Positions 5,006 to 29,965 of a stretch of DNA of 49,519 bases are shown here, in pieces (within the stretch, counting starts at the first letter, position 1; each line of letters starts with the position of its first letter). The position numbers and the translations under genes are program-made. Location of the stretch: assembly GCA_947174785.1 (NCBI GenBank), contig CAMWKG010000011.1, forward strand, positions 1 to 49,519, read 5' to 3'. The notes beneath the pieces are model-generated. The model had not been told where the DNA came from. It did not search any database and saw only the letters and a program-made list of their open reading frames with translations. The stretch is from an uncultured Mollicutes bacterium. GTDB lineage: Bacteria; Bacillota_I; Bacilli_A; Acholeplasmatales; Anaeroplasmataceae.

Positions 5006-6580
5006 ATGAGAAAAATTATAATTTATGTTTCCGTAATATTATTTTGGTTTGTTGGTGTTATCCTTTTCTGTAACCTAGGTAAGAAAAGCTCTAATTCAGA
5101 TGAACATGACTTTACGATTCTTTCTGTAAAGGAAGATGCTGTTAAGGATTATAATAGTATGCCAGTTTTCCAAAAGCTTGCAAAGGAAACAGGAAAAGAT
5201 GTATACTGGGTTTATAATACATCTGTACAATACAGCAATAACCCTGACCCAGTAGGAATTAGTGGAATAGATGCAATCTATCATTCAGGATTTTCTAACC
5301 TAAAGCTTTACAATTATGGAAAGAGAAACCGTATTGTTGCGATTGACAAGTATTTAAAGTCTATGCCTAATTTAAGTAGAATCTTAGAGGAAAGACCAGA
5401 TATAAAAGAAGCATTAACTTCTCCAGATGGGCATATTTATTCTCTTCCAAGAGTTGAGGAAATGGGATTAAAGGCTTATCCAAATATCTTGTTCATTAAT
5501 AAGAAACTTTTAGCAAGTATGATTCAATCTGGTACTATGCCAGTGAAGAGCTTGAAGGAATCTGATTTAGTTGATGGTCTAGATTTATCTAGAAATGAAT
5601 TTAAAGAAATTCTTCGTGTATTTAATAAAATGGATGGAATTGTTCCTCTAAATTTTGTTAGCAATTGCTGGCAAGGAAATGAATCTGATTTGATTGCTTC
5701 CTTCGGTGTTGCAGAAAATAGAGAGCATAAAACGATCATTGATGGCAAGATTACCTTTACAATTACAGAAGAAGCATGGTTTAATGCTATAGTAGAATTA
5801 AATAGTTGGTATAGTGAAGGTTTAATCCGTTCAGCATCCTTTACTCAGGATCAGGATACTTTCCTAGCTAAAGGACAGAATGGTTCATACGGTGCTTTCT
5901 ACTGGTGGGAAAAGGAAACAGTTGTCGCAAATCCTGAGGATTATATTATTGTTCGCCCACTTAAAAATAGTGATGGAAATCGCTATGTAGGTGTAAGTAA
6001 TGAGCTTGAAGTTGAGAAGGGAGCTTGTGTTATTTTAGATAGTTGTGCAGATAAAGCAGGACTATTAGCTTACTTTGATAAATTCTTTGAGCCAGAATAT
6101 TCAGCTCAATTGAATTATGGTTCTATAGAATCAGGAGCTTTTAAAAGTGAAAAGGTAGATAATAAGCTTATCCCTAACGATGATCATGGTGTTCAAAGTG
6201 CAGATGATTTCCGTATGAAAAATGCACCATATGGAGTAGTTTATCTTACTCAAAATGAATGGGATAATTCAATACAAATGGAGTCTCGTGCTCAACTTAG
6301 ATTAGACCGTTTGAATCAATTTATTAAACCTTATAGCTATAATGGTGCTATTGGAATTCCTAATTTGAATTATACTGAAGAGGAATTAAATCAATTAAAT
6401 GTAAGTGAATCCTCATTAGGAAATAATATTTTAAATTGGATGACAAAAAGTATTACAAAAGAAAAACCAACAAAAGAAAGTTGGGAAAAATTCCTTTCAA
6501 ATAATAAAGCAGCAATTGATACGATATTAAAAATAAATCAAGATGCTTATGATCGTTATTTAGAAGCAATTAAAAAATAA
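5006..6580 (+). CDS. Extracellular solute-binding protein of the sugar importer, membrane-anchored
   Basis: A 524-residue binding protein in the position occupied by LplA in similar clusters. It has an N-terminal hydrophobic segment at residues 4-23 and a long alpha/beta region with SBP-like features such as IYSLPRVEEMG and KLLASMIQSG. Residue C22 is preceded by ILF, which does not fit a lipobox, so the protein is more likely held by an uncleaved membrane helix than by lipidation. The start at 5006 follows AAAGGAGG. It should deliver oligosaccharides to the two permeases encoded immediately upstream. Family membership rests on context plus overall appearance; cargo is inferred from the fructan context. 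Confidence 0.82.
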   Translation: MRKIIIYVSVILFWFVGVILFCNLGKKSSNSDEHDFTILSVKEDAVKDYNSMPVFQKLAKETGKDVYWVYNTSVQYSNNPDPVGISGIDAIYHSGFSNLKLYNYGKRNRIVAIDKYLKSMPNLSRILEERPDIKEALTSPDGHIYSLPRVEEMGLKAYPNILFINKKLLASMIQSGTMPVKSLKESDLVDGLDLSRNEFKEILRVFNKMDGIVPLNFVSNCWQGNESDLIASFGVAENREHKTIIDGKITFTITEEAWFNAIVELNSWYSEGLIRSASFTQDQDTFLAKGQNGSYGAFYWWEKETVVANPEDYIIVRPLKNSDGNRYVGVSNELEVEKGACVILDSCADKAGLLAYFDKFFEPEYSAQLNYGSIESGAFKSEKVDNKLIPNDDHGVQSADDFRMKNAPYGVVYLTQNEWDNSIQMESRAQLRLDRLNQFIKPYSYNGAIGIPNLNYTEEELNQLNVSESSLGNNILNWMTKSITKEKPTKESWEKFLSNNKAAIDTILKINQDAYDRYLEAIKK

Positions 6581-6599
6581 AAGAACAGGAGGGATAAAT

Positions 6600-7244
6600 G
6601 TGAAATTACAAATATTTGGTGATTATGTTTTAGAATTTTTCGTTGTTACAATTCTATTGATATTATCGTTAGCTTTAGTTATTCCTTTTATCCCAATGGT
6701 TGTAGGAGTTACTGGATATTTTAAAAGAGACATAAACTCTCGTAGATTCAAGGATATATTTAGTACAATGAAAGAAAATTGGAAAATATTAATTTTCTAT
6801 ACAGTATTTCAATTGATTATTCTTGTTGCTTCTATTTTAAATATCTTTTACTTTAACAGTCATTTAGAAACCAAGTTTTACTTCATATTAATTGTCAGCT
6901 ATATTGCTTTAATTATAGGAATCTTTTACTTGATTACAGCTCCGACAATTATAGTGAATATGAATGTTACTTTTAGACAATTATTGTATAACGGATTTAT
7001 GCTTTTAATGGGAAATTTGAAAAATACAATCTTTGCTTTAGTGTTAGCTGCTTTGGTTGTGGTTCTTATATTGTATTTCCCATATGTAATACCTTTAATG
7101 TTTTATTTTGTAACTCTAGTGAGTCAAAAATTAATGTCAGAAAATTTTTTAAGACTTAAGGCAAAAGCCTTAGGCGTTCGTGTTGAGGATTTAAGAAAAG
7201 AATCCGAAGAAGATGAATTTTTATCTGAAATAGATAATCAATGA
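6600..7244 (+). CDS. YesL/DUF624-like membrane protein
   Basis: A 214-residue protein with about five membrane helices (roughly residues 9-35, 58-80, 88-115, 140-160 and 165-180) and a charged C-terminal tail rich in E and D. It starts at GTG 6600, preceded by AGGAGGGATAA. DUF624 proteins such as YesL are usually encoded beside LplABC-type sugar importers, which is exactly this position; their molecular role is not established. It overlaps the next reading region at the stop codon, so it is part of the same transcript. An alternative would be an unrelated small integral membrane protein. Confidence 0.72.
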   Translation: MKLQIFGDYVLEFFVVTILLILSLALVIPFIPMVVGVTGYFKRDINSRRFKDIFSTMKENWKILIFYTVFQLIILVASILNIFYFNSHLETKFYFILIVSYIALIIGIFYLITAPTIIVNMNVTFRQLLYNGFMLLMGNLKNTIFALVLAALVVVLILYFPYVIPLMFYFVTLVSQKLMSENFLRLKAKALGVRVEDLRKESEEDEFLSEIDNQ

Positions 7245-7258
7245 TGAGGAGAATGAAG

Positions 7259-8878
7259 ATGAAAAAGAAATTAGGTTTAATCCCTTTTATAAGTCTCCTT
7301 TTATTGGTAGGCTGTAAAAGTACGAAAATAGATACAGCGCCAGTAATAGAAGGAACGGCGGGTATAGAGTGTGTTGTTAATAGCACAGTGGACTTGTTAA
7401 GTGGTGTGATTGCCTATGATGAAGAAGATGGGGATATCACTGAAAAAATGGAAATATCTATCGCACCTTATGTGAATGTTTGGAATGGATATGCTATTTT
7501 TGATCAAGCGGGAAATTATAAGGTAAGCTATGAAGTACTAGATAGTAAAGGAAATACTGCCAAGAAAACTGCTGATATTTCTGTTATAGATAGAGAAGTT
7601 TATCTTGACTTCGCTGCTGCAAATGGATTCTATACTTCTGTATCAGGACATGCAGTTTTAGAAAAAGGTGGTATGTATAACAATACATATTCTATTGTTG
7701 CTAATAAGTGTGAGGTTGCAGAAGATGTTTCCTTGAACCGAGTTTATACATTGGATAAAGGATATGAATATACGTTTAGATATTTCTTATCTTCAGAAAC
7801 TGCAGGTAGAATTCGTATTTTAGTGGATGGAGAGCTTGCAGATGAAAGAAATATCGTTGCTGGAGAAAACACAGTAGAATTTAAATATAAAACAATCTCT
7901 AAGGATTCAGCTACAGTTTCATTATTGTTGGGTGGATTAGGAGAGTGTGTTCAATGTGAGTTTACAGGTGCTGAAGTTGAAAGACCTCAGGAAACAGGCT
8001 ATGAAGAACAATTGAATGGTTTTACTGTTGAAGGAAGATTTGATGGTACAAAGGGAAATGCCTTTAAGGTTGCTGGAACAGAGGCAGCCACATTAGAGAT
8101 TACAGAGGCTTCATCAGCTATATGGCGTGGCGGAATGTTCCTTCGTACAAACATTGCTATGGAAATTGGAAAGGAATATGTTGTTTCCTTTGATATTGAA
8201 AGAAAAGAACTAGAAAACTGTGAGGTTGTCCTTCAAAATCAACAATGGGATGAGAAAAAATTTGATACTATTTTTGTTGAAGATGCAGAGCATAAAACAC
8301 ACCATGCAGTTACCTATAGAGTAACAGAAGAAAATAGAGGAGAGTTATGGTTATATGTTCAATCAGGAACAAATGTTAATGAGATAACACTTTCAAATCT
8401 AAGTGTTCAGCTTCGTTTAGATTCCTTGAAAAGAGAATACTTAACTTTATCTGATTTCACAAATGCAAATGATGGATTTAACTGTAAGTTTGAAAGCTTT
8501 GCAGGAGGATTTAAATATACTATTGAATCCTTTGCAGATACAGATTGGATGCAAAAGGTTACTAGTCCAGAATTCTATATTGATGGAAGTGGTAGAAACT
8601 ACATCATAACCTTTAAAGCAAAAGCTTCTGCCCCAACTGAAGTTGTTTTTGCAGCTCCTATTGCAGGCGGTTGGGATCCAACATGGATATGGTCAAAATT
8701 TACTATTGGTGTTGAAGAGAGCGTCTATACCTTTGTCGGTAATGCAGATGGTGGAGATCGTAACAATGTTTTTGTTTGGCAGTTTGGTTCAACAAAAAAT
8801 CAAAGATATAAAAATGTCACTATAGAGATTAGTGATATTAAAATCTCTTATAAAAATAGTGCATATGATGGTGATTAA
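7259..8878 (+). CDS. Carbohydrate-binding surface lipoprotein (Ig-like plus CBM4/9-like modules)
   Basis: A 539-residue lipoprotein with lipobox LVGC (Cys at about residue 19). After it comes a DUF5011-type Ig-like domain at about residues 25-95, with DEEDGDIT and GNYKVSYEVLDSKGN signatures, then three beta-sandwich modules of CBM4/9 appearance, about 98-240, 245-385 and 390-539. No hydrolase motif is seen, so it probably binds fructan and holds it near the surface enzymes. The start chosen is ATG 7259 with GAGGAG at 7246-7251; ATGs at 7241, 7244 and 7253 lie before, within or too close to that site. Assignment of the modules to CBM4/9 is by eye and only moderately certain. Confidence 0.75.
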   Translation: MKKKLGLIPFISLLLLVGCKSTKIDTAPVIEGTAGIECVVNSTVDLLSGVIAYDEEDGDITEKMEISIAPYVNVWNGYAIFDQAGNYKVSYEVLDSKGNTAKKTADISVIDREVYLDFAAANGFYTSVSGHAVLEKGGMYNNTYSIVANKCEVAEDVSLNRVYTLDKGYEYTFRYFLSSETAGRIRILVDGELADERNIVAGENTVEFKYKTISKDSATVSLLLGGLGECVQCEFTGAEVERPQETGYEEQLNGFTVEGRFDGTKGNAFKVAGTEAATLEITEASSAIWRGGMFLRTNIAMEIGKEYVVSFDIERKELENCEVVLQNQQWDEKKFDTIFVEDAEHKTHHAVTYRVTEENRGELWLYVQSGTNVNEITLSNLSVQLRLDSLKREYLTLSDFTNANDGFNCKFESFAGGFKYTIESFADTDWMQKVTSPEFYIDGSGRNYIITFKAKASAPTEVVFAAPIAGGWDPTWIWSKFTIGVEESVYTFVGNADGGDRNNVFVWQFGSTKNQRYKNVTIEISDIKISYKNSAYDGD

Positions 8879-8879
8879 G

Positions 8880-10232
8880 ATGAAAAGCTTATCAGAAATC
8901 AATGATTTTGTAGAGTCACAAAAAAAGAAAGTTAATGATAAATATCGCTTAAAGTACCATATGATGCCGCCAGTAGGATGGATGAATGATCCAAATGGTT
9001 TAGTTTATTTTGGTGGGAAATATCATTTGTTTTATCAATATAATCCATATAATACTTTACCAGGAACAATGATGTGGGGACATTCCACTTCTAAAGATCT
9101 AATTCAATTCCATGATGAACCAGTAGCACTGATTCCAACAGAGCCACATACAAGTATTTTCTCTGGTGGTGCTATCCAAATTGAAGGAGAACTCAACGCA
9201 GTCTATACACTTCACTATGAACTTGATGGAGAGAAAAAGGAAGAGGTCTATTTAGTTAAATCAAAAGATGGTATTCATTTTTCAGAACCTGTTTGTGTTT
9301 TTGATAACAACACATTACCTGAGAATATTAGCCGTATGGATTTCCGTGATCCTTTCCCAGTTCTTATAGATGATAAAATTTATGTGTTGGTGGGAGGAAA
9401 GGATGTTAAGCTCAATAAAGGAGTTATTGTAGTTTTAAAGGGAGATTCCTTAGATAAGCTTGAATATGCTTTTACTCTTGGACCTTTCTATGAGCTTGGA
9501 GATATGGGAGAATGTCCTAGTTATTTTAAAGTAAATGATAAGGATGTAATCGTTGTATCTGGATGTCATGTTCAAAATAGAGATAATGATTTCAAGAATA
9601 TTAACTCTAGTGTATTTATTGTTGGAAACCTTGATTTCCAGCAGGGAAAAATGAGTATTGATTTTATTAAAGAGATAGATAAAGGAGATGCCTTCTATGC
9701 TCCTCAATTTATCAATGGTATACGTGAACCAATTATGATTGGTTGGATGGAAATGTGGGGAAAAGAATATCCTACACATGAAATGAATCATAACTGGACA
9801 GGAGCATTCTCAATTCCTCGTAGGTTAATGATTCAAGATAAGGATATTTATCAAATTCCAGTAGAAAGCTTAAAGAGTTATCATAAGGAATATAAATCAA
9901 GTACACATTGCTTGGATATTTCGTTTGATATATTTTATAAAGGAAAACTGGAAATTAATGGAGTTAATGGGAAAGTAGTACTTAACTTAGAAGATTATTT
10001 CTATTTGGATACTACTCAAGCAAACAATAAAAATGGTTATATTAGAAGAACGAATCATACCTATAGCAGTTGTCATGTCAGACTACTCGTAGATGTTTCT
10101 AGTATAGAAGTTTTTGTTGACAATGGTAAAGAAGCAATCAGTAGTAGAATTTATTTAAATGGAGATTATACGATTGTTTCTAACGAAGCTATTCGTAATA
10201 TACAAATGAAAGAGGTAGGTGTTTATAAATGA
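8880..10232 (+). CDS. sacA: Cytoplasmic GH32 beta-fructofuranosidase / sucrose-6-phosphate hydrolase
   Basis: A 451-residue GH32 enzyme without signal peptide, so intracellular. The catalytic triad is complete: WMNDPNG with nucleophile D37, FRDP with D157, GECPS with E211. It should release fructose from imported fructo-oligosaccharides or sucrose (or phosphorylated sucrose). Because uptake here is by an ABC system and not by a PTS, unphosphorylated substrates are more likely. Length fits the family. The start at ATG 8880 lies two bases after the previous stop with only a weak GGTGA upstream, so translation may be coupled; ATG 8865 and 8868 are alternatives. It shares ATGA with the next gene. 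The symbol denotes the family, not proven orthology. Confidence 0.93.
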   Translation: MKSLSEINDFVESQKKKVNDKYRLKYHMMPPVGWMNDPNGLVYFGGKYHLFYQYNPYNTLPGTMMWGHSTSKDLIQFHDEPVALIPTEPHTSIFSGGAIQIEGELNAVYTLHYELDGEKKEEVYLVKSKDGIHFSEPVCVFDNNTLPENISRMDFRDPFPVLIDDKIYVLVGGKDVKLNKGVIVVLKGDSLDKLEYAFTLGPFYELGDMGECPSYFKVNDKDVIVVSGCHVQNRDNDFKNINSSVFIVGNLDFQQGKMSIDFIKEIDKGDAFYAPQFINGIREPIMIGWMEMWGKEYPTHEMNHNWTGAFSIPRRLMIQDKDIYQIPVESLKSYHKEYKSSTHCLDISFDIFYKGKLEINGVNGKVVLNLEDYFYLDTTQANNKNGYIRRTNHTYSSCHVRLLVDVSSIEVFVDNGKEAISSRIYLNGDYTIVSNEAIRNIQMKEVGVYK

Positions 10233-11725
10233 AAAAGAAAATAGGTGCATTTCTACTGTTATCTCTATTAGGGGTTCTTGTAGTAGGCTGCTCAAGTAAG
10301 AAACCTAAAGAGGAAAATAATAGAACACTTTATCCTGTGTCTTCCTACGAAGAAACACTTGCAATTACAATGGGTGATGTTATGCCATTTTATGATAATG
10401 GCGTTATGAACATCTATCACTTACAAAATAGTAAGGGAACAAATAGTATGTATTACCATCCTATATCTCGTGTAACTACAACGGATTATGTAAATTATAA
10501 GGATGAAGGCATAGCTATCCCATTTGAAGAGGAATATAATTCTCCTGATGCAGCTATAGGAACAGGCTCATTTATAAAAGATAAGATTGGGAAATATCAT
10601 TGTTTCTATACAGGACATAATGCTGCAGAGGGGACAGGATTACCTCAAGTTGAGGTTATAAGACATGCTACAAGTGATGATCAAAAGACATGGACAAAGG
10701 TAGAGGATTTTAATCTCTATGGCGATTGTGATGATTTCCGTGATCCATATGTATATTATGATTCTAATGATGAGTGCTATTATATGCTTGTTACAACAAG
10801 AGTAAATGGAACAGGAGTAATTAAACAATATTCTACAAATGATTTATTTTTAGATGATGAGTATTGGCAGGATTGTGGTGTATTTTTCTGGAATGATAAT
10901 GGGTCATATAATATGGAATGTCCTTCCTATATTGAATATAATGGGTTTTACTATTTGGCTTTCAGTGAACAAGGAGACAATCGTGTAACACATTATCGTT
11001 TTAAAACAAGTCCAGATGGAGAATGGAAAAAATTTGAACGCGACAGCATTGATGCAAGTGGATTCTATGCAGGCAGATTAGAAAAGGCCGGAGAAGAACT
11101 ATATGCCTTTGCTTGGTGTGCTAATCTAACAGGCGGCTTTACAGGTGATTTTGACTGGGGTGGCAATCTAGTTGCACATAAAATTACTCAATCTGCAAGT
11201 GGCGAATTAAATGCAGTAATGATTGATTCTGTTTATAATCATCTTTCTAAAAAAGTTGAATATAAGACACTGGATAATAAAAAGCTAGATATGTTATCCT
11301 TTGAGGCAGAGGGGTTCCATTCTACCTGTCTTCAAAAATTAAGCAAGAACATTACTAGATTAAACTTCAAATTTACAATTGAAGATAGAACGGGTGATTT
11401 TGGTTTAACATTTAATGTTAAAGGAGCAAACAATAGATTAGGTACTGCTGTAATTGCATTTGAGCCTAGTAAAAATAGTTTATCTTGTTATAATAATGTT
11501 TATAATGTAATTCGTTATGGAAAGGCACTTTCTACAGTATCCTTTGTTTATTCCAGAAATAAGGAATATGAAGTAAATATACTTATCGATAATGAAATTA
11601 TGACAGTATATTTAGATGATGCTGTAGCATTGACCGTAAGACTATCAGGTGCAAGCAATAAGAATTTTGCTTTCTATTCAAATCAAACCGGCGTTACATT
11701 TAGAGGTATAAAGTTTTATGAGTAA
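10229..11725 (+). CDS. GH32-like fructosidase lipoprotein
   Basis: A 498-residue lipoprotein with lipobox VVGC (Cys about residue 21). It has the GH32 propeller motifs in divergent form: the nucleophile block reads MGDVMPFYDNG instead of WMNDPNG, placing D50 as candidate nucleophile; DFRDP gives D172; MECPS gives E230. The C-terminal half (about 330-498) is the GH32 beta-sandwich. Keeping all three acidic residues suggests an active exo-acting enzyme on the outer face of the membrane rather than a pure binding protein. It starts with the ATGA overlap of sacA and ends in an ATGAGTAA overlap with the fructokinase, so it is tightly co-translated. Fine specificity is unknown. Confidence 0.82.
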   Translation: MKKKIGAFLLLSLLGVLVVGCSSKKPKEENNRTLYPVSSYEETLAITMGDVMPFYDNGVMNIYHLQNSKGTNSMYYHPISRVTTTDYVNYKDEGIAIPFEEEYNSPDAAIGTGSFIKDKIGKYHCFYTGHNAAEGTGLPQVEVIRHATSDDQKTWTKVEDFNLYGDCDDFRDPYVYYDSNDECYYMLVTTRVNGTGVIKQYSTNDLFLDDEYWQDCGVFFWNDNGSYNMECPSYIEYNGFYYLAFSEQGDNRVTHYRFKTSPDGEWKKFERDSIDASGFYAGRLEKAGEELYAFAWCANLTGGFTGDFDWGGNLVAHKITQSASGELNAVMIDSVYNHLSKKVEYKTLDNKKLDMLSFEAEGFHSTCLQKLSKNITRLNFKFTIEDRTGDFGLTFNVKGANNRLGTAVIAFEPSKNSLSCYNNVYNVIRYGKALSTVSFVYSRNKEYEVNILIDNEIMTVYLDDAVALTVRLSGASNKNFAFYSNQTGVTFRGIKFYE

Positions 11726-12656
11726 ATTATATTCTATTGGTGAATTGCTGATTGATTTTCAATCTGTAGGAACAGGCTCCTTAAAGGAAACAAAAGAGTT
11801 TGTGAAAAACGCAGGTGGAGCACCTGCCAATGTATGTGTTCAGGCAGTGAAATTTGGGAAGGATGCTGTATATTTAACTAAAGTGGGAAATGATGGCTTT
11901 GGAGACTTTTTAATAGATTCTTTAAAGAATGAAGGAGTTGATGTAAGCTTCATTTCTAAAAGCAATGAGTATGATACATCCTTAGCCTTTGTAAGCTTTA
12001 AAGAAGATGGAGAACGTGAATTTTCCTTCTATAGGAAAATGGCTGCAGATCTTCATTTTACAAAAGAAGATTTTAAAGATGTTGCTTTTACAAAGAATGA
12101 TATTTTAGAATTTGGCAGTGTAGCGTTGAAGACAGAGGTTTCTAGACAAACGCACAATGATTTAATTGAAAGAGCAAAAGCCGCTCATGCATTAATTGCA
12201 TTTGATCCTAATTTAAGATTAAATCTTTGGGAAAATCATGAAGAATTAAAGAGCATTGTTAAACAATATATCTCTTGTGCAGACATTATTAAAATTGGTT
12301 TAGATGAATTGGAATTCATTACAGGAAAAAGTGAAGAGTCTGCCGTAAAGGAAATTCTTCACAAAGATTTGAAGGTATTACTTGTTACCTATGGAAGTCA
12401 TGGGGCAAGATTATATCTACAAAACGGAAAAAGTTATTATAACCCAGGATATAGGGTACAAGCAGTAGATACAACAGGTGCAGGAGATTCCTTCTTCGGA
12501 GCCTTCTTGGCAGAAGTGCTAGACGGTGGACTTTCAGCTTGTGATTATGAGAAAGCTTTAGATATCGCATGTAGGTGTGGCGCATACACAACAACAGGGT
12601 ATGGTGCTATTCCAGCAATGGGAACAAAAGAAAAAGTGGTAAAGGAGATTAAGTAA
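11718..12656 (+). CDS. scrK: Fructokinase, PfkB family
   Basis: A 312-residue ribokinase-fold sugar kinase predicted to phosphorylate fructose to fructose-6-phosphate with ATP in the cytoplasm. The N-terminal signature NAGGAPANV lies at about residues 32-40 and the C-terminal PfkB signature [13 protein letters not shown] places the catalytic base at D257. Length is normal. It starts inside the last codons of the GH32 lipoprotein gene (8-bp overlap). Position after two fructosidases supports fructose as substrate over other PfkB substrates such as ribose or 2-keto-3-deoxygluconate. Confidence 0.92.
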
Positions 12657-12657
12657 A

Positions 12658-13854
12658 ATGGCTACAGTAAAACTTGTGAATGTAAATAAGGTGTATGATA
12701 GTGGAGTTCATGCAGTTCATGACTTCAATATAGATATTAAAGATAAGGAATTCATTGTATTTGTAGGACCATCTGGTTGTGGAAAATCTACAACACTACG
12801 TATGATAGCTGGTCTTGAAGAAATTTCTTATGGAGAATTCTATATCGATGATCAACTCATGAATAATGCTGCTCCAAAGGACAGAGATATTGCAATGGTG
12901 TTCCAATCCTATGCATTATATCCTCAAATGACAGTTTATGGAAATATGGCTTATGCATTAAAGCTTAGAAAAATTCCTAAGGATGAAATTGATAGAAGAG
13001 TTCAAGAGGCTGCTCGTATTTTGAAGCTTACTCCTTATTTGGATAGAAAGCCAAGAGCTATGTCTGGAGGTCAGCGTCAAAGAGTTGCCCTAGGTAGAGC
13101 AATTGTAAGAAGACCAAAGGTATTCTTAATGGATGAGCCATTATCTAACCTAGATGCTAAGCTCCGTGTGGCAATGAGAAGTGAAATTGTTCGTATTCAT
13201 GAGGATGTTGGTGCTACAACAATCTATGTAACACATGATCAAATTGAGGCAATGACAATGGCTTCAAGAATCGTTGTAATGAAGGACGGCTTTATTCAGC
13301 AGATTGGTGAGCCTAATGAGGTTTATCTACATCCAAATAATATGTTCGTAGCTGGCTTTATCGGTACTCCTGCAATGAATTTTATTCATGGTAAAGTAGA
13401 GAAAGGATATTTTTATCCAGATGAGGCAGAGTGTAAGATTCCACTAACTCCTGAACAGAAGAAGCTTTTGAGAAATTATGATGAACATCGTGTGGTATAT
13501 GGAATTCGTCCAGAGCATTTGATTTTCAATGAGAGTTCCTTGTTTGAAAATGCGAAAAAGCATTCATTTAAAATGAAGAAAGAAATTGTTGAAAAGCTTG
13601 GAGATGTAGTTAATGTTCATGGTAGTCTAGGAAGTGCAAAGATAATCATTAAGATGAACATGAAGTATTTCAATTCTTTAAAAGAAGATGTTTTGGTAGC
13701 TATCGATACTGAGCATGCAAAATTCTTTAATGAATCAACAACAAGAGTTATTACAGAAAGTGATAATGCCTATGAGGAGGTAGTAAATACAAAATCCTTA
13801 GATGAGGATAATGTTGTTATTGTTGATTTGAAAAAAAAGAAGAAAGAAAAATAA
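12658..13854 (+). CDS. msmK: Sugar ABC importer ATPase, MsmK/UgpC type
   Basis: A 398-residue ATPase that probably energises the LplB/YtcP permease pair. Walker [10 protein letters not shown] is at residues 37-45, the Q-loop [13 protein letters not shown] near 82-94, the signature MSGGQRQR near 136-143, and Walker [16 protein letters not shown] follows. The C-terminal third is the OB-fold TOBE region typical of MalK/MsmK. It starts one base after the fructokinase stop with AAGGAG upstream. LplABC-type clusters often lack a local ATPase and use a shared MsmK, so one inside the cluster suggests a self-contained importer, although it might also serve other CUT1 permeases. The C-terminus ends in a lysine-rich tail. 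Confidence 0.94.
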
Positions 13855-18433: not shown

Positions 18434-21400
18434 ATGAAAAGAAAGAAGAAAATATTGACAATACTCACTTTCGTTTTAGTTGTATTATTTGCTTTTAGTG
18501 TTGCCAGCTGTCGCAAAAATGATGTTCCTAATGAGGATAATCCTACTAATGATAATGACAATAACAAACCAGGCAATGATAATAACAATCCAACAGGACC
18601 TACAATGCCTACTGATCCATCAGGAACACAAAGTGTTAAAAATGGGAATGCTACTGAAATCACAGGTGGGTATGAAAAAGGTACAGCACGTGCTACTCAA
18701 ACGAGCGAGTATCTTGGTGCCGTTGACAAAATTGTAAAGCCTGTAAAAGAAGTAATGGATGAGCATGAAACCTATGGTGTAAAGGTATATCCAACTTATG
18801 GTAAGAATTTAAAAGGATTTACTGTAGAAGAAAGAGACGGTCTTATAAAGGAAGCTCATGCACTTGCACCTTCACCATCCTGGAAATCCTTAGGTATTTA
18901 CAATGCAATTGATTCTGAAGGGTATCTTTTAAAGAATGGTCAGCGCATTCTTTATGGATCTGGAGAAGGATCTGAGGATAACAATGAAGAAGCAGAGGGT
19001 GAGATTATTTCTGGTGGTCAAGATGCAGGTCTTGGCGAAGGAAGTGATTTAGAAGAGGGATCTACAACTGTAAATTCTCAATACAATTTAAAGTATAGAA
19101 TGCTTTATAAGCATACAGCAGCTCTTACTCATTTTGGTGGTGGTTTATCTGATGATGAGCCTCGTATTGTTAAAAAAATTACAGCTTTGACACATCCAAA
19201 GCTTGAATCTACTACGATTACTGGTTTATATGCACCAGCAGGAGAGGTAATCAAATTTGAAATGTCATTAAGTGATTATCTAGCTGCAGGTGGACTTAGA
19301 GTTCTTATAGGACAAAACTATAACCTTTCTCAGCATGTTTCTATGGAAACTTCAGGAAATGGTATTAAAGGAAATGGCTTAAATCGTATGCCTGATATAC
19401 TTAGTATATTCCAATATAATGATAAAACTGGTGCTGTATATAAGGATGGAGATACTGTTACATTCTATGTAGGTTCTTTCCTAGGTGGACCAATTTATTT
19501 TAGACCAATAAAGAATACTACTGAGCTTAAAATATCTGTAACAATTTCTGGTGCAGTAAAATATCAACACTTTATTTTAGGTGTTACTACTCCTGAAGAG
19601 TATGAGTTTAATAAAGCTTCAACTGCTCCTTATTTTGATTTAGAGGTGTATGATTCTGTTCGTTTTACAACTCACAAATATGCATCTTCAAACGGACTTG
19701 CCCTTAAGGATTTCACTTATGAGAATTGTTCAGATGCCGCTGTTTTATGGGATAAGATTGCTGAGGTTTCTACTCGCGTAAGATGGAATGGTTTATCAGG
19801 CGCAAGTGCTCCTGTATATATTATTGGTGACTGTTATATAGCAGCAGGTGCAGCATTTGCTAACCCTGGTAGAAATGGTGTGGTTTGTCCTCCAAGCTGG
19901 CTTGCTGAAGCTCTAAATTATAATCGATTTGTAAACAGCGGTAGCTGGGGTACAATGCATGAATATAATCACTGCTGGCAAGGATATGGTCTTAAAAACA
20001 GTGGTGAGGTTGGAAATAATGCCGTAACACTTGTTTCATACTCTCTTTATACACGTATATCACAAAGTAGAACTGCTGCTACGAACTGGGGTAATGGCAG
20101 CTGGAATAGGTTTACCGATCCTTCTAAAGCTTTAGGTGAGCTTTTATCCTTAGGTGCAAACGGCAGTATTCGTGAGGATTTGTCAGTATATGCAACTTTA
20201 ATTCATAATATTGGTCAAGATATGTTTGTGGCAGCTGCAAAGGGTGGTAAGGATAGTGGTTCTATTGTTTACTTTAATAACCTTGTAAATGCTACACATA
20301 TGGATATGACATATTACTTTACTGATGTACTTCATCTTGGTGTTAATTCTAGTAGAGGAATCAATCAAGCAACGGTTGATGCTGTAAAGGAGAAAAACTA
20401 TCCTATGTTTGTTCCTGTATCCTCCCTATATCAAGTAGGTAGAAGTATTATTTATGATGGAAATAAACAATATATAACAACTGCTCAGCCATACTCTTAT
20501 GGAACAGGCGAGTTTACAATGGACTTTACAAATAAGAATAATTTTGCAAGTGGGGCATGGAAAACTAAAGCTTTAGTTATTCCAGATGGATTTACTGTAA
20601 CAGTTAAAAATGTTACTCAGCCTGCAAATGGTACAGTAGAGTATCTTGGAGATAACAAAGTAAAATATACCCCAAAATCAGGAGAGAATGGTCTTTATTC
20701 AGGAAACTTTATAGTAACCTTAGGAATCACTAAGGACAATGGTGATTTTGTTGTTGAGGATGTTGATTTAGTAATCAATCTAAAACAAGGTGTAAGTACG
20801 GATTTAAATAGAACTACATATACTTATGCAGATGCAGCAAATGTAGTTGCTTCAAATGCAGTATATAATGCACAAACTAAAGCCTTTGACTTTGGTAATT
20901 ATGTTACATCTGAAACAAGAAGAAATATTTGTACACAAGAAACAAACACACAAATTTGGGGTGCAGGTAGAACTTACCTTGGCGATACTTATGATGAGAA
21001 CAAATATCAAGACCTAGAGGTTGGAAAGACAATCCAAACTTTAGATGGTGTTTTATATTTTTCTAGTCCTAACACATATCGTTTTACTCTAAAAGGGAGA
21101 GGCAAAGGAACACTTTATCTTTCTTATGATGCTGGTGCAACTTGGGAAAAGGCATTTACTTTCGACAGAAAGAGTGGATCTGCTTATGTAAATGATGAGT
21201 ATTATGAGCGTGAGCTTACTGCAAGCAATACGTATATTTATTTTAAGGTAGTACTTCAAGTTACTTATGATTGGAAGGATTTCTTCGGCATTGGTATAGC
21301 TGCTAAGCAAGCAGATGGAAACTTTGCAGCATTCAGTAATGCATCTGCAATTTCTCTATCAAGCGTAGGCGTACATGCTGCAACACTTCAAGCCAACTCT

Positions 21401-22333
21401 AAAAAGTTCGAAACAGAATATCATTTTGAAAGCAATTATAGCTATGCTTATTCAGCTACAGAAAAGGTTCCAGCATCTATGACAAAGCTTGTTTCTGTAA
21501 ACCGTGGTTCTTGGGACGATAAGCTAACTATAGAAAATCTATTTGATGGTAATGCAAACACATTCTATCATTCTATTGGTGGTACAGATAATTTTATTAC
21601 CGAAGAAAAGCCATTTGAGCTTGTTGTTGACTTAGGTGCAGAATACAAAGTAAATAGTGTTACCTTTAATGGATATAGTGGTAAGGTTGGAAATAATGGT
21701 ATGGTAAAATCCTTTAAGATTTATGGTAGCACAGATGGAAATAATTACACGCTTATCACTGAGCAAACTGATTCTGCAGCAAATAAAAAGGTTATGACAT
21801 TCAGTTTTGATGAAGTGAACATTAGATATTATAAGCTGGTTGTTACCAAAACAGATAATGGACGTTATTTCGCAATGAATAGTATTGAATTTGCATCAAG
21901 CGTTTCTTTTGAGAAAGGAAATATGGTTACTCCTCATGATTCTAATGTATTATACTCAGGTGAATGGGGAACTAAAAATATTTTATGTGATTATGGTATC
22001 ATCTACACAGCAGAAGCAGGAAGCAGCGTTGAATATCACTTTACAGGTACAAGAGTTGCATATTTTGCAGATATGAATACTGAATATGGTACAGTAGATA
22101 TCTATATAGATGGAAAGCTTATTGCTTCTGATGTTAGTCTATCAGGTATAAATAATGACAACATTCAAATTACACAAGCACTTTATAATTCATTTAATGA
22201 AGCAAATGTTAAAATGGCAGGATTCCTTGCTTACATTTATTCTGGAGATGCACTTTCAAATGGAGAGCATGTCCTAAAAATTGTAGGTAAGACTGGTAGC
22301 TTTAACGTAGATGCATTTGCATATTGGAGCTAA
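18434..22333 (+). CDS. M60 family (enhancin/mucinase-like) metallopeptidase lipoprotein
   Basis: A 1299-residue surface protease. The lipobox is VASC (Cys about 27), followed by a low-complexity N/D/P/G linker about residues 30-60. The zinc site is HEYNH (H509, E510, H513) with E525 in SGEVGNN as the downstream glutamate expected for the M60 HExxH-E pattern. After the peptidase region come a Gly-rich Ig/cadherin-like segment about 700-780, a PA14-like module about 850-960, an F5/8 type C (CBM32-like) module about 1020-1155, and a jelly-roll module at the end. M60 peptidases cleave O-glycosylated host mucins, and CBM32-type modules bind the glycans, so host glycoprotein degradation is the likely role. 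It is monocistronic, between two terminators. Confidence 0.87.
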   Translation: MKRKKKILTILTFVLVVLFAFSVASCRKNDVPNEDNPTNDNDNNKPGNDNNNPTGPTMPTDPSGTQSVKNGNATEITGGYEKGTARATQTSEYLGAVDKIVKPVKEVMDEHETYGVKVYPTYGKNLKGFTVEERDGLIKEAHALAPSPSWKSLGIYNAIDSEGYLLKNGQRILYGSGEGSEDNNEEAEGEIISGGQDAGLGEGSDLEEGSTTVNSQYNLKYRMLYKHTAALTHFGGGLSDDEPRIVKKITALTHPKLESTTITGLYAPAGEVIKFEMSLSDYLAAGGLRVLIGQNYNLSQHVSMETSGNGIKGNGLNRMPDILSIFQYNDKTGAVYKDGDTVTFYVGSFLGGPIYFRPIKNTTELKISVTISGAVKYQHFILGVTTPEEYEFNKASTAPYFDLEVYDSVRFTTHKYASSNGLALKDFTYENCSDAAVLWDKIAEVSTRVRWNGLSGASAPVYIIGDCYIAAGAAFANPGRNGVVCPPSWLAEALNYNRFVNSGSWGTMHEYNHCWQGYGLKNSGEVGNNAVTLVSYSLYTRISQSRTAATNWGNGSWNRFTDPSKALGELLSLGANGSIREDLSVYATLIHNIGQDMFVAAAKGGKDSGSIVYFNNLVNATHMDMTYYFTDVLHLGVNSSRGINQATVDAVKEKNYPMFVPVSSLYQVGRSIIYDGNKQYITTAQPYSYGTGEFTMDFTNKNNFASGAWKTKALVIPDGFTVTVKNVTQPANGTVEYLGDNKVKYTPKSGENGLYSGNFIVTLGITKDNGDFVVEDVDLVINLKQGVSTDLNRTTYTYADAANVVASNAVYNAQTKAFDFGNYVTSETRRNICTQETNTQIWGAGRTYLGDTYDENKYQDLEVGKTIQTLDGVLYFSSPNTYRFTLKGRGKGTLYLSYDAGATWEKAFTFDRKSGSAYVNDEYYERELTASNTYIYFKVVLQVTYDWKDFFGIGIAAKQADGNFAAFSNASAISLSSVGVHAATLQANSKKFETEYHFESNYSYAYSATEKVPASMTKLVSVNRGSWDDKLTIENLFDGNANTFYHSIGGTDNFITEEKPFELVVDLGAEYKVNSVTFNGYSGKVGNNGMVKSFKIYGSTDGNNYTLITEQTDSAANKKVMTFSFDEVNIRYYKLVVTKTDNGRYFAMNSIEFASSVSFEKGNMVTPHDSNVLYSGEWGTKNILCDYGIIYTAEAGSSVEYHFTGTRVAYFADMNTEYGTVDIYIDGKLIASDVSLSGINNDNIQITQALYNSFNEANVKMAGFLAYIYSGDALSNGEHVLKIVGKTGSFNVDAFAYWS

Positions 22334-24179: not shown

Positions 24180-24857
24180 ATGAAAAAAATTGCTTTAATA
24201 TTTGTTACATTTGTTATGGTTTTACTTGGCTTAAATTTGAAGGCAAATGCTTCTTATGGACCAGTAGTAACTGATCAAGTTGATTCGCAAAAAATTTATG
24301 AAGAACTTAGCAAAAAGCAAACTTATAAAGGTAAAATTTATAAATCAGGAATAATTGATAATTATCATGTTGTGGAAACTACAGGAGTTGCAGATCTCAG
24401 AAAGGACCAAATCATCTGTGGTCTTACAGACTCTTTTGCTGTTGATTCTACATCTAAAACTATGCCAAGATTAAGAATAAATAATGCTCAGACCTTTGTC
24501 GCATTTGACCAAACGGAAGTTAAAGAAGCTTATGCATATACTTTACTAAATGGATTACAATTATGCACAGACGATTATACTACAAGCAACATAAAAACGA
24601 AATATGTATTTTATTCAGCTGCAGCTGAAATGAATTTGTGTTCAACTTCAATTGCTGTCAATAATGCAAATTATACATTTAGAAACATACCTGAAGGTAC
24701 AAAAAGGGCGCAATTATTGTTGAAAGGCGATGTTATTGTTCTTACGGTTTTTATTAAGAATTACCAAATATTATGGGGTGGCCATGATAATAATTATAAG
24801 AAGCAAGTAAATGCTTATATATGTTGTAATACATATGAATATGAATCTTTCATGTAA
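24180..24857 (+). CDS. Small secreted protein of unknown function
   Basis: A 225-residue protein with a clear signal peptide (KK, hydrophobic core residues 4-20, likely cleavage after ANA near residue 27). The mature part of about 200 residues is polar, beta-rich in appearance and has five cysteines (in IICG, LQLC, NLCS and the pair ICCN), so disulfides are possible. No membrane anchor, lipobox or sortase motif is seen. I do not recognise the family. The ATG at 24180 follows GAGGAGA. It lies 99 bp before the first of two ABC exporters but separated from it by that gene's own promoter, so a link as cargo or sensor is only suggested by proximity. Confidence 0.7.
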   Translation: MKKIALIFVTFVMVLLGLNLKANASYGPVVTDQVDSQKIYEELSKKQTYKGKIYKSGIIDNYHVVETTGVADLRKDQIICGLTDSFAVDSTSKTMPRLRINNAQTFVAFDQTEVKEAYAYTLLNGLQLCTDDYTTSNIKTKYVFYSAAAEMNLCSTSIAVNNANYTFRNIPEGTKRAQLLLKGDVIVLTVFIKNYQILWGGHDNNYKKQVNAYICCNTYEYESFM

Positions 24858-24886: not shown

Positions 24887-24933
24887 TATATTTTCATCCT
24901 CCGCTTGACTAGATGTAGTTATGAAAATATAAT
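24887..24933 (+). promoter_or_regulatory. Consensus promoter bracketed by an 11-bp inverted repeat
   Basis: TTGACT (24905-24910), 17 bp, TATAAT (24928-24933). A perfect inverted repeat, TATATTTTCAT at 24887-24897 and ATGAAAATATA at 24921-24931, flanks the -35 and overlaps the -10. Arm centres are 34 bp apart, about three helical turns. This layout suits a dimeric or looping repressor that blocks the -10. The ABC exporter ATG follows at 24957 with AAGGAGATAT. Confidence 0.7.
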
Positions 24934-24956
24934 ATATTATAAGGAGATATATTAAT

Positions 24957-25786
24957 ATGTTAATCATAAGAGACGTAACGAAAATATATAGAACCCAGAA
25001 GCAGAAAGAGGTTAAAGCGTTAGACCAAATCAATTATGAATTTGACGAACAAGGCTTTTATGCAATATTGGGAAAAAGTGGATCAGGGAAATCTACACTA
25101 TTAAATCTAATTGCTGGACTAGATAAGCCAACGAGTGGAGAAATCATATTGAATGGAAAGAGCTTTTCTGATTTCAAAAGAAAAGATCTTGATGCATATC
25201 GTAATTCATGTGTGGGTTTTATATTTCAAGAATTTAATTTGTTTGATAACTTAGATGTATATAAGAACGTAGCCTTAGCATTAGAACTCCAAGGAAGAAA
25301 AGCTAAGGTGGAAGAAATAGAAAAAGTATTAGATAGGGTAGGAATATCAGATTTGATACATAGAAACATCAATGAATTATCTGGCGGACAGAAGCAGAGA
25401 GTGGCAATCGCCCGAGCATTGATAAAGAATCCAAAGATAATTATAGCAGATGAGCCAACAGGAGCATTAGATCAAGAAACAACAAATGAAATATTTGATT
25501 TATTAAAGGGATTATCAAAGGAGTACTTAGTAATCGTTGTTACACATAATGAAGAATATGCAAATCAATATGCAGAGCATATTCTTCATCTATCCGATGG
25601 AAAGCAAAAAGAACAAGTAGAACTAACAAATAAACCTTTAGAAGCAGGGATGGAATTAGAATATAAAAAAAGCTTATCTATATTTTCTTCTTTAAAGATG
25701 GGATTTTCAAATTTGAAGATAAGCATTGTCCGTTTAGTTTTATGCATTCTATTAACTACAATGGCTTTTTCTAGTCTTGGGTTTTG
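24957..25786 (+). repeat. Tandem repeat unit A, copy 1 (ATPase half)
   Basis: This stretch matches 27055-27884 at an offset of 2098 bp. I find three substitutions in the first about 90 bp, then about 0.7 kb with no difference up to 25759, after which identity fades quickly. Confidence 0.92.
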
Positions 25787-27035
25787 TCTAACTGTATCTA
25801 ATTTTTCTATGAGAGATATTGTTGTAAATAGCGTTGTTTGTAATGAATATGAAGATCCTTTTGTTATTGTAAAGGACGATGATTGTGTTGATGAAGCATT
25901 TATCACTCGTTTGAATGACAGATTGGGTTTGAATTTTAAAGGAGTATATAATTTTTCTTTAGATTATTACATTCCTCAAAATCAAAAAAATAAGCTTCTT
26001 TTTAGTTCTAATTGTCTATCCCTAGCAAAGCCTTATGGAATATTGGAAACTAACGAGGCATATTTAAAGAAATTAAATTTTACGATTACTGGCACATTTC
26101 CACAAAGTGATGATGAGATATTAATTACAGAGTATTATTACAATACCTTTGCTCGATATGGTTTTGAAAATGAAGAAATCCAACTTAATGCAGATGAAGT
26201 GACTAAAGAAAAGATTATAGGACAGACGATTCAGCAAGATTCTTATAATGACCAATCAGCTAAATTAAAAATTACAGGTATAGTTGATACGGGATTTAAT
26301 ATGGATAAATATAGGCATTTATACGATTATGACCCAAACGGGATGCAGTATGCACATGACTTTAATTTGGTTCAGCAAATAAAGTATTCCAGCTATCATA
26401 GTTTGGTTTTTGTTAAAGAGGGTACACTTCAAAGTAATTCTTCTCTAGTCTATTCTAATAAAGATGGATATGATTTTATCATAGATAATATGCCTCATGA
26501 TAAGAAGCGTATTGAAGAAGTTTATGATTATTTAGATGAAGTGTCTTCAAATGAAAATCAATACCATTTATGCTTTGGCCTAACTAGTAGCCAACAGAAA
26601 GATTTGGAAGCAAAGCTTTTAAATTATCAGTATTTTTCAGGTATTGCTGGTGCTATCTTTAGTATTTTTTCAATCTGTCTAATGTTTACTTTACTCAATT
26701 TTACTGTAGAGCGTAAAAAACGAGAAATGGGCGTGCTACGAGCATTAGGTGCTAAATCTCGTAATATTTTCTTTATATTTTCGAGTGAAGGAATATACTT
26801 ATGTATTTTTAGTTTGATATTGTCTTATATTGTTAGTTCTATTTTTGTAATAGTATTTAATAATTCTATAAAGCATTCTGAGGGATTATTGGCAACCATA
26901 TATCATTTTGAATTCATTCAATTCCTAATAGTATTTATTATTGCTATTATAACAACATGTGTTTCCATATTTATTCCTGTACTAAAGGTTACAAAAAAAT
27001 CCCCTGCAGAAGCTATACGTATGGAAATTAAATAG
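24957..27035 (+). CDS. ABC exporter, fused ATPase-permease of MacB topology (tandem copy 1)
   Basis: A 692-residue protein with an N-terminal ATPase (about 1-225) and a C-terminal FtsX/MacB-type permease. Walker A GKSGSGKST is at 39-47, the signature LSGGQKQR near 142, Walker B IIIADEPTGALD follows. One helix at about 252-276 leads into a large extracellular domain (about 280-570), then three helices, with the last tail reading KSPAEAIRMEIK as in FtsX permeases. MacB-like systems drive extracellular mechanical work or export of peptides and lipid-bound antibiotics; the cargo here is unknown. Two such proteins, or a homodimer, would form the transporter. It is followed after 19 bp by a second copy whose first 830 bp are almost identical. 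Confidence 0.88.
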   Translation: MLIIRDVTKIYRTQKQKEVKALDQINYEFDEQGFYAILGKSGSGKSTLLNLIAGLDKPTSGEIILNGKSFSDFKRKDLDAYRNSCVGFIFQEFNLFDNLDVYKNVALALELQGRKAKVEEIEKVLDRVGISDLIHRNINELSGGQKQRVAIARALIKNPKIIIADEPTGALDQETTNEIFDLLKGLSKEYLVIVVTHNEEYANQYAEHILHLSDGKQKEQVELTNKPLEAGMELEYKKSLSIFSSLKMGFSNLKISIVRLVLCILLTTMAFSSLGFCLTVSNFSMRDIVVNSVVCNEYEDPFVIVKDDDCVDEAFITRLNDRLGLNFKGVYNFSLDYYIPQNQKNKLLFSSNCLSLAKPYGILETNEAYLKKLNFTITGTFPQSDDEILITEYYYNTFARYGFENEEIQLNADEVTKEKIIGQTIQQDSYNDQSAKLKITGIVDTGFNMDKYRHLYDYDPNGMQYAHDFNLVQQIKYSSYHSLVFVKEGTLQSNSSLVYSNKDGYDFIIDNMPHDKKRIEEVYDYLDEVSSNENQYHLCFGLTSSQQKDLEAKLLNYQYFSGIAGAIFSIFSICLMFTLLNFTVERKKREMGVLRALGAKSRNIFFIFSSEGIYLCIFSLILSYIVSSIFVIVFNNSIKHSEGLLATIYHFEFIQFLIVFIIAIITTCVSIFIPVLKVTKKSPAEAIRMEIK
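26055..26226 (+). repeat. Tandem repeat unit B, copy 1 (extracellular-domain patch)
   Basis: About 172 bp matching 28177-28348 with only four substitutions, although the flanking extracellular sequence of the two genes is very different. The offset here is 2122 bp, so indels separate it from unit A. Confidence 0.88.
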
Positions 27036-27054
27036 TATAGCATAGGGGGAAAAT

Positions 27055-27884
27055 ATGTTAATTATAAGAGACGTAACGAAAATATATAAAACCCAGAAGC
27101 AGAAAGAGGTTAAAGCGTTAGACCAAATCAATTATGAATTTGATGAACAAGGCTTTTATGCAATATTGGGAAAAAGTGGATCAGGGAAATCTACACTATT
27201 AAATCTAATTGCTGGACTAGATAAGCCAACGAGTGGAGAAATCATATTGAATGGAAAGAGCTTTTCTGATTTCAAAAGAAAAGATCTTGATGCATATCGT
27301 AATTCATGTGTGGGTTTTATATTTCAAGAATTTAATTTGTTTGATAACTTAGATGTATATAAGAACGTAGCCTTAGCATTAGAACTCCAAGGAAGAAAAG
27401 CTAAGGTGGAAGAAATAGAAAAAGTATTAGATAGGGTAGGAATATCAGATTTGATACATAGAAACATCAATGAATTATCTGGCGGACAGAAGCAGAGAGT
27501 GGCAATCGCCCGAGCATTGATAAAGAATCCAAAGATAATTATAGCAGATGAGCCAACAGGAGCATTAGATCAAGAAACAACAAATGAAATATTTGATTTA
27601 TTAAAGGGATTATCAAAGGAGTACTTAGTAATCGTTGTTACACATAATGAAGAATATGCAAATCAATATGCAGAGCATATTCTTCATCTATCCGATGGAA
27701 AGCAAAAAGAACAAGTAGAACTAACAAATAAACCTTTAGAAGCAGGGATGGAATTAGAATATAAAAAAAGCTTATCTATATTTTCTTCTTTAAAGATGGG
27801 ATTTTCAAATTTGAAGATAAGCATTGTCCGTTTAGTTTTATGCATTCTATTAACTACTATGGCTTTTTCTAGTCTAGGTTTTTG
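27055..27884 (+). repeat. Tandem repeat unit A, copy 2 (ATPase half)
   Basis: Second copy of the 24957-25786 segment. About 0.7 kb (from about 27145 to 27857) shows no difference by eye, including third codon positions. Confidence 0.92.
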
Positions 27885-29148
27885 TTTATCATTGAACTTT
27901 TATTCAAGGATAGATATTATCTATGGAAGCTGTGAAAAAACAAGTTTCCAGGATCCAATAACTATAAGCTGTTATAACCGACCTGATGAAAACGAATCAT
28001 GGATGATGGGACTTAACAATTCAAATGAAATTATGGATAAAATAAAGAAGAATACACAGTTGGATTTTAGAGTATTCAATGATTCATATACGGTTGGTGA
28101 TTTTTATATAGAATCATCAGATACCTCAAATGATTTTTTAAGTTTATTTAATCCTCAAGGTATAGTCGAGATTGATGAGGCATATTTAAAGCAATTAAAT
28201 TTTACGATTACTGGCACATTTCCACAAAGTGATGATGAGATATTAATTACAGAGTATTATTACAATACCTTTGCTCGATATGGTTTTGAAAATGAAGAAA
28301 TCCAACTTAATGCAGGCGAAGTTACTAAAGAAAAGATTATAGGACAGAAAATTTATTGTAGTGATCTTAGAAGCCAACAAAAGAAGTCTTTAAAAATATG
28401 TGGAATATTGGATACTAAATTAGATTTAAAGCCTTACGAAAAATTAACAGAAGAAGATATTAAAATAGATAATGAAATTGTGACTATATCAGAATCTATC
28501 GCAAGAATTAAGCAATGTAGTCTTCACTGTCCTATATATATGAGAAAAGATGCAATTGCTGCAGCTTTTGGCCCCAATATTATTTCATCAAAATTAATTG
28601 GACCCATAATAAGAGATAAAAGGACTATACAAGTTTTAATTGACTATTTAAAAACCGAGAGTAATTCTACAAATAAGTACGAAATAAGATTCGGTATTAG
28701 TGATAAGCTTGATACAATTATTGATAATCTGAATTTGATTCAATCTTATATGGCTGTTTTTGGTGGAGTACTTATGTGTTTTTCTATCTTCCTTTTATTT
28801 TCTTTACTTAATTTCACTATAGAAAATAAGAAACAAGAAATGGGAATTTTAAGAGCATTAGGTGCTAAAGGGAAAAATTTATTTTTTATTTACTCTAGTG
28901 AAGCAATTTATATTAGTGGAATTAGCTTAATATTTTCCTTTGTCTGTTGTTCAGTGCTTTTGTGTTGGATGAATAATTATTTAATGAAAACAGAAAATAT
29001 CTTAGTTTCTGTATACCACTTCAGCTTTTTAACTTATTTTTTATTATTCATAATTGCGTTAGTTTCTACTATAGTGGCAATTACGATACCCGTTCTAAGA
29101 GTTATAAAAAGGACTCCTGCAGAAGCTATTCATATGGAGATTAAATAA
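27055..29148 (+). CDS. ABC exporter, fused ATPase-permease of MacB topology (tandem copy 2)
   Basis: A 697-residue paralogue of the preceding exporter with the same ATPase (one substitution, K12 for R12) and the same first helix. From about residue 278 the extracellular domain is different (SRIDIIYGSCEKTS onward), except for a patch at about 375-432 that is almost identical to copy 1, and the three C-terminal helices are only moderately similar. The tail KRTPAEAIHMEIK is conserved. The ATG at 27055 follows AGGGGGAAA, 19 bp after copy 1, so both are one transcript; a terminator follows. The likely arrangement is a heterodimer with matched ATPases and unlike outer domains. Confidence 0.88.
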   Translation: MLIIRDVTKIYKTQKQKEVKALDQINYEFDEQGFYAILGKSGSGKSTLLNLIAGLDKPTSGEIILNGKSFSDFKRKDLDAYRNSCVGFIFQEFNLFDNLDVYKNVALALELQGRKAKVEEIEKVLDRVGISDLIHRNINELSGGQKQRVAIARALIKNPKIIIADEPTGALDQETTNEIFDLLKGLSKEYLVIVVTHNEEYANQYAEHILHLSDGKQKEQVELTNKPLEAGMELEYKKSLSIFSSLKMGFSNLKISIVRLVLCILLTTMAFSSLGFCLSLNFYSRIDIIYGSCEKTSFQDPITISCYNRPDENESWMMGLNNSNEIMDKIKKNTQLDFRVFNDSYTVGDFYIESSDTSNDFLSLFNPQGIVEIDEAYLKQLNFTITGTFPQSDDEILITEYYYNTFARYGFENEEIQLNAGEVTKEKIIGQKIYCSDLRSQQKKSLKICGILDTKLDLKPYEKLTEEDIKIDNEIVTISESIARIKQCSLHCPIYMRKDAIAAAFGPNIISSKLIGPIIRDKRTIQVLIDYLKTESNSTNKYEIRFGISDKLDTIIDNLNLIQSYMAVFGGVLMCFSIFLLFSLLNFTIENKKQEMGILRALGAKGKNLFFIYSSEAIYISGISLIFSFVCCSVLLCWMNNYLMKTENILVSVYHFSFLTYFLLFIIALVSTIVAITIPVLRVIKRTPAEAIHMEIK
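28177..28348 (+). repeat. Tandem repeat unit B, copy 2 (extracellular-domain patch)
   Basis: Second copy of the 26055-26226 patch with four substitutions. It encodes the ITGTFPQSDDEILITEYY region of the outer domain. Confidence 0.88.
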
Positions 29149-29228: not shown

Positions 29229-29275
29229 AAAAAAGATATAGCATTCTGTTTTTGAGCAGTGCTATATCTTTTTTT
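29229..29275 (+). terminator. Rho-independent terminator after the ABC pair
   Basis: A perfect 15-bp stem (AAAAAAGATATAGCA and its complement at 29260-29274) with a further CTG/CAG pair in the loop, followed by T residues. It ends the exporter operon 80 bp after its stop. Confidence 0.9.
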
Positions 29276-29323: not shown

Positions 29324-29347
29324 AGGAGTAAAAGGTGAGTGAATGAA

Positions 29348-29965
29348 ATGGAATTTAAGGATAAAATAAAAAAACTAAGAACAAGTAAAGGCCTTTCTCA
29401 AGAGGCACTGGCAAGTGAGCTTCTGACCAGCAGATCAACAATAGCCAAATGGGAAAGTGGTATTAGACTGCCAACAAGTCAATCCTTTGAACTTATTGCT
29501 CAATTTTTCAATGTTCCTATAGAAGAATTATTAGATGAAACAGATACTAAAAAAATTGTGATAACAACAAATGATTCTATGAGTAAAATATTTTGGGGAA
29601 TTCTTTGTATGGGATCTATTCTTTTCACATTAATTATATCTATGCTATTTTTCTTTAAAATCTATGGAACATATTGCATAGATATAGTAGGTATATTTAG
29701 TGATAATGGATATATCTATATTACCTATAGCCTAGCAGATATGAAAAATAACCCTTGGTGGATTGTTGGGCTCATATTTAATGGTATATTTATATTCATT
29801 TCTATTCTTATGTTTTTGTTAAGAAATCATCGATATAAAAAGCTATGGATTGGCGCATGGATTACAAGTCTTGTTTTAGCTGTTGTATTTACGGTGGTTG
29901 CTTTCCTGTCAGGAAGGTTTATGGTAGATTTGTGGTTGGCAAAATATTTTCTTTTGGAGGTTTAA
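29348..29965 (+). CDS. Membrane-tethered XRE-family regulator
   Basis: A 205-residue protein with an N-terminal XRE helix-turn-helix (about 4-60: LRTSKGLSQEALASELLTSRSTIAKWE) and three predicted membrane helices at about 78-105, 135-160 and 167-192. Such one-component regulators may link DNA binding to an envelope signal. The start is ATG 29348, about 10 bp after AAAGGTGA; the GTG at 29339 overlaps that site and is rejected. The lipoprotein gene begins 3 bp after the stop, so the two probably work together. It lies directly downstream of the ABC pair and could control it, but this is inference. Confidence 0.82.
   Translation: MEFKDKIKKLRTSKGLSQEALASELLTSRSTIAKWESGIRLPTSQSFELIAQFFNVPIEELLDETDTKKIVITTNDSMSKIFWGILCMGSILFTLIISMLFFFKIYGTYCIDIVGIFSDNGYIYITYSLADMKNNPWWIVGLIFNGIFIFISILMFLLRNHRYKKLWIGAWITSLVLAVVFTVVAFLSGRFMVDLWLAKYFLLEV

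Follow-up and report, generated by a model that had tools for sequence, protein, structure and literature searches.

Introduction

In the LolCDE system, the different permeases LolC and LolE share the ATPase LolD. Exporters of type VII (ABC3) combine a fused N-terminal ATPase, one transmembrane segment (TM), a large extracytoplasmic domain and three further TMs with FtsX in a single protein (PMC5985334). On the evolutionary side, long-lasting concerted evolution of prokaryotic paralogues through recurrent gene conversion has been described for 26 genes, mtrA being an example in tandem that also shows domain shuffling (Wang and Chen, 2018, PMC6053082); neither ABC nor transporter is mentioned anywhere in the main text of that paper.

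Here, we analysed a stretch of 49,519 nucleotides (hereafter the window) from the genome of an uncultured Mollicutes bacterium (G000), in which two adjacent genes encode fused ATPase-permease exporters, designated A and B. As in the cases described in PMC6053082, A and B are closer to each other within the genome than to their orthologues, silent sites included. Unlike in those cases, the homogenisation stops within the genes: conversion has affected the motor and spared most of the outer domain, and a further short patch was converted on its own.

Results

Architecture and local context of exporters A and B

Genes A and B are adjacent on the same strand with a gap of 19 bp (Table 1). Based on Pfam matches and hydropathy, A consists of an N-terminal ABC ATPase, TM1 (residues 260-278), an extracytoplasmic domain of ~280 aa and TM2-4 (residues 562 on, FtsX), and B is organised alike, so that both share the domain layout of MacB and type VII exporters. 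They differ from MacB in being two non-identical tandem copies; a Pfam search with their outer domains gave nothing convincing up to E 10 and no MacB_PCD match. Unlike at a MacAB efflux pump locus, no recognisable MacA-like adaptor gene is adjacent to A and B, which are flanked by the genes for an orphan secreted protein (24180-24857) and for an HTH regulator (29339-29965). The AlphaFold model of A, built on an alignment of 4 sequences, had a mean pLDDT of 45, which is poor for fold comparison.

A sigma-70-like promoter ahead of A is a plausible candidate because it sits upstream of an RBS-like AAGGAG, promoter-like matches in the same scan being overall no commoner than chance. The palindrome and T run after B, with a loop length outside that admitted by the terminator scan, probably represent the terminator of B. 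Elsewhere in the window, positions 18434-22333 encode a large secreted peptidase (M60, enhancin-like, mucin-type) that carries an F5/8 type C domain, and positions 115-13854, as read from ORF translations only, contain an apparent fructan-use locus with GH32-like enzymes, sugar ABC permeases, a binding protein, a fructokinase-like kinase and an MsmK-like ATPase.

TABLE 1. Coordinates in the window of the exporter genes, their near-identical blocks and flanking features.
Feature	Position	Strand	Evidence and remarks
225-aa orphan protein, predicted signal peptide	24180..24857	+	100 bp upstream of A; hydrophobic N-terminus by eye
Candidate sigma-70-like promoter for A, TTGACT-17-TATAAT	24905..24933	+	11/12 consensus match
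Exporter A	24957..27035	+	692 aa; Pfam ABC_tran 5.8e-37, FtsX 1.7e-15; hydropathy
Block 1, copy in A (ATPase to TM1)	24954..25777	+	4 differences vs 27052-27875
Block 2, copy in A (within extracytoplasmic domain)	26055..26226	+	4 differences/172 bp, offset 2122 bp
Exporter B	27055..29148	+	697 aa; Pfam ABC_tran 8.2e-37, FtsX 2e-11; hydropathy
Block 1, copy in B	27052..27875	+	Alignment to A copy 24954..25777
Block 2, copy in B	28177..28348	+	Alignment to A copy 26055..26226
Terminator candidate after B (palindrome + T run)	29235..29275	+	Read from sequence

Near-identical blocks with sharp edges in A and B

Alignment of A with B revealed only 3 mismatches in the 803 bp at the start of the genes (at 24965, 24991 and 25046), the last 713 bp of which are free of them (25047-25759). 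The next mismatches are at 25760 and 25778; past the latter the similarity begins to decay, and beyond ~25790 the identity drops to ~45%. At the other end, the homology begins only ~3 bp upstream of the ATG. In block 2, mismatches were located at 26070, 26194, 26195 and 26201. These results reproduced the counts of a preliminary description of the locus, which had reported three substitutions in about 830 bp, about 0.7 kb with none, and a patch of 172 bp with four; the segments between and after the blocks, which it had called very different, showed nucleotide identities of 0.42-0.61. It had also proposed following synonymous divergence along the genes, which proved non-uniform, with a dS between A and B of 0.012 over codons 1-263 (block 1) and 0.10 over A codons 372-425 (block 2), and with saturated third positions outside the blocks.

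Among the codons that encode the same amino acid in A and B, the longest run of identical ones was 235, compared with a mean of 27 and a maximum of 68 after shuffling (0/5000 shuffles reached 235). The silent sites are thus homogenised as contiguous tracts with sharp edges, which is a hallmark of concerted evolution. Apart from short matches to common ATPase motifs, no further copies of either block or of other segments of A and B were found in the 1.84-Mb genome.

Independent homogenisation of an orthologous pair

A search of genome contigs with A alone gave no match, and a contig search with an alignment found only one close relative, a pair designated A2 and B2 in genome G010 (contig CATKXV010000002.1 of an uncultured Anaeroplasmataceae bacterium). 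The complete set of secreted protein, A2 and B2 is present in this one of the 11 same-genus genomes examined, in surroundings unlike those in the window, with ribosomal protein genes upstream. No plasmid relatives were found.

Over 789 nt of block 1, there are 3 mismatches between A and B and 4 between A2 and B2, versus ~210 for both A-A2 and B-B2; the corresponding dS values are 0.012 and 0.025, versus 1.93 (A-A2) and 1.83 (B-B2). The same holds for block 2, with dS of 0.10 (A-B) and 0.37 (A2-B2) against 1.68 (A-A2) and 0.78 (B-B2). In the remaining segments the relationship is reversed: segment by segment, amino-acid identity is higher for A-A2 and B-B2 (40-70%) than for A-B and A2-B2 (24-58%). 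Trees rooted with G009 and G005 genes as outgroups grouped block 1 as (A,B) and (A2,B2) with 99-100% bootstrap support, and the non-block segments as (B,B2) with 100% and (A,A2) with 75-93%. The trees and dS values therefore show paralogues that are closer within a genome than orthologues are between genomes, from a duplication older than the split. As the two histories are incompatible as a species history, the ATPase half must have been homogenised after the split, once per lineage. The duplication of A and B is old, and their ATPase half was homogenised separately in both lineages.

These results bear directly on the explanations offered in the preliminary description. A very recent, possibly partial, duplication would account for tandem copies with strong identity within one genome, and it is refuted by the conflict between the segment trees: outside the blocks, A clusters with its own orthologue A2 and B with B2, and a recent event cannot yield non-block third positions that are about as saturated between A and B as between species. 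We thus reject it as highly improbable. Equally hard to credit is the proposed cassette-like or programmed variation, in which an outer domain would be swapped on a constant motor to change specificity. The different outer domains on a near-identical motor would fit such a system, but those of A/A2 and B/B2 are orthologous and unshuffled, which indicates vertical stability; moreover, in contrast to known cassette and phase-variation systems, the genome has no extra copies of the outer domains and no silent cassettes of them, and no recombinase was seen among the nearby ORFs examined around A and B. The third proposal, gene conversion by which the motor stays identical, gains strong support from the independent homogenisation of A2 and B2 over the same regions, which came to light through the comparison with related genomes that the description had suggested. 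We put the probability that the blocks were homogenised by recombination in each genome, as gene conversion or an equivalent unequal exchange, at about 0.87.

Homogenised and diverged pairs among tandem fused exporters

To place the pair in a wider context, 73 tandem same-strand fused NBD-FtsX pairs (59 + 14) from genomes of the order and class were aligned. Because the pairs were gathered by way of matches to the A family, the following fractions are not estimates from a random sample. Five of the 73 pairs were homogenised, namely those in the window, in G010, in G009:C1 and at 560 kb and 158 kb in G069, with NBD nucleotide identities of 0.93-0.996 (third positions 0.91-0.99) and identities of 0.42-0.615 over the rest of the genes. 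One further pair, in G122, was intermediate (0.87 and 0.69) and looks like a younger whole-gene duplicate. In the other 67 pairs, NBD identity was 0.47-0.655 and third-position identity 0.31-0.57. In the five homogenised pairs, the longest identical runs measured 169-713 bp; the corresponding figure was 52 bp for the G122 pair, 30 bp for one other pair and at most 23 bp for the rest. Synonymous-codon shuffling gave 0/5000 for each of the five homogenised pairs, and four control pairs were not significant. On its 3′ side, block 1 stops within TM1 or shortly after it in three pairs (codons ~259, 271 and 288); in the other two, this edge coincides with the end of the ATPase (codons 208 and 220).

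The survey also bears on a possible assembly artefact, that is, a single ATPase segment collapsed and written twice. G000 is in 53 contigs, and the surviving mismatches in block 1 lie within ~90 bp of its 5′ edge in G000 and within ~215 bp in G010, a distribution also expected if an assembler merged interior variants in these drafts; the exact identity over 713 bp may for this reason be overstated. Misassembly is nevertheless not the general cause, because G069 is one contig of 1,883,099 bp and carries two homogenised pairs with mismatches dispersed inside the block, the 560-kb pair being a mosaic of identical runs of 262, 105 and 278 bp split by divergent patches. Since the pattern also recurs independently in G010 and G009, and since a collapse is not expected to create a block from copies that are ~50% identical at third positions, an artefact is a very remote explanation. 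With that third-position divergence to explain away and the single contig of G069, the homogenisation does not depend on the exact figure of 713 bp.

Another explanation is that selection maintains the identity because a heterodimer needs matched ATPases or TM1 interfaces, conversion being merely the means. It agrees with a block that spans the ATPase and, in three pairs, stops in or just past TM1. On the other side, the ATPases have diverged freely in 67 of the 73 tandem pairs, so that their identity is not needed for function, and the identity extends to silent sites, where protein selection does not call for it and where selection at the protein level alone cannot explain it. We consider this explanation unlikely, and recurrent recombination as such the better account.

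Several other arrangements were noted in the survey. Four fused exporters are clustered in L094 (4505-14358; G069:C1, ~154-164 kb), where one neighbouring pair is homogenised in the ATPase and the next is not. In L113, L116, L119, L138 and similar loci, fused exporters of ~705 aa and ~820 aa form conserved pairs or alternating arrays with a spacing of a few bases; this pairing appears old and widespread and is suggestive of heteromers. In L149 (G005:C29:1-3536), the contig ends inside a fused exporter, which is followed by a 257-aa predicted secreted protein of unknown type. The truncated exporter at this edge was considered as a break at block 2 and dropped, as it mismatches the other G005 gene there.

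A secreted protein family linked to fused exporters

The 225-aa protein encoded upstream of A had no match in Pfam, NCBIfam or PADLOC. Its orthologue in G010 occupies the same position and is 46% identical. Six members of this protein family were found in six genomes from two genera of the family Anaeroplasmataceae, all six directly 5′ of a fused ABC exporter, and they are characterised by a conserved C-terminal stretch (YQxxWxG...VxAYxxCN). They include decayed copies in G003, G005 and G044, and the protein has sometimes decayed together with the exporter. An AlphaFold model based on 2 sequences reached a mean pLDDT of 37, too poor for a fold search. Given its constant linkage 5′ of fused exporters, the secreted protein may be their partner or their cargo.

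Discussion

Taken together, A and B descend from an old tandem duplication of a fused half-transporter of the MacB type (type VII, ABC3 superfamily) and are preceded by the gene for an orphan secreted protein. LolCDE provides a working analogy, as it also joins two different permeases to the same ATPase; it differs in that A and B each carry a fused ATPase of their own, that their heterodimer is putative, and that the locus has no lipoprotein-sorting context. This analogy and the many conserved unequal tandem pairs in the survey make a heterodimer plausible, and we see about even odds that A and B work together. They would then probably form a heterodimer, in which the two ATPases are near-identical and the two outer domains differ, and would act either on an envelope-active peptide or the secreted protein or jointly with one of these. 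A more far-reaching proposal, which we advance tentatively and hold to be rather unlikely, is that tandem MacB-type exporters form a class of paired transporters in which conversion confined to the motor synchronises the ATPases of one heteromer, the sensor domains evolve separately, and the exporter serves an undescribed secreted family.

As to the mechanism, RecA-type recombination requires a minimum stretch of identity, and the gap in run length between the homogenised and the other pairs fits this requirement. Recurrent ectopic homologous recombination between neighbouring or sister copies would act on A and B, and the conserved stretches, remaining alike enough to recombine, would be re-copied repeatedly. 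The outer and C-terminal segments would have fallen below the length threshold for recombination, and tracts overwriting them would not persist; the position at which block 1 stops on its 3′ side could be due either to sequence divergence or to selection against tracts that overwrite the outer domain. A pair that retains long identical runs would go on converting, and one that loses them would escape permanently. With one genome per species, the comparison bears on the outcome of conversion and not on its direction or frequency.

Concerted evolution by gene conversion is a known process, and its domain-restricted, recurrent occurrence here is new; we found no report in the open-access literature of tandem ABC exporters in which conversion is restricted to the motor domain. 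With pairs of this transporter architecture, nature provides a clean experiment on the escape of bacterial duplicates from gene conversion, as one architecture presents two classes, one still converting with long identical runs and the other fully diverged with very short ones. Moreover, concerted evolution in bacteria can be restricted to one domain, with misleading effects on gene trees, orthology assignments and short-read assemblies. Our study also points to an undescribed secreted protein linked to fused exporters.
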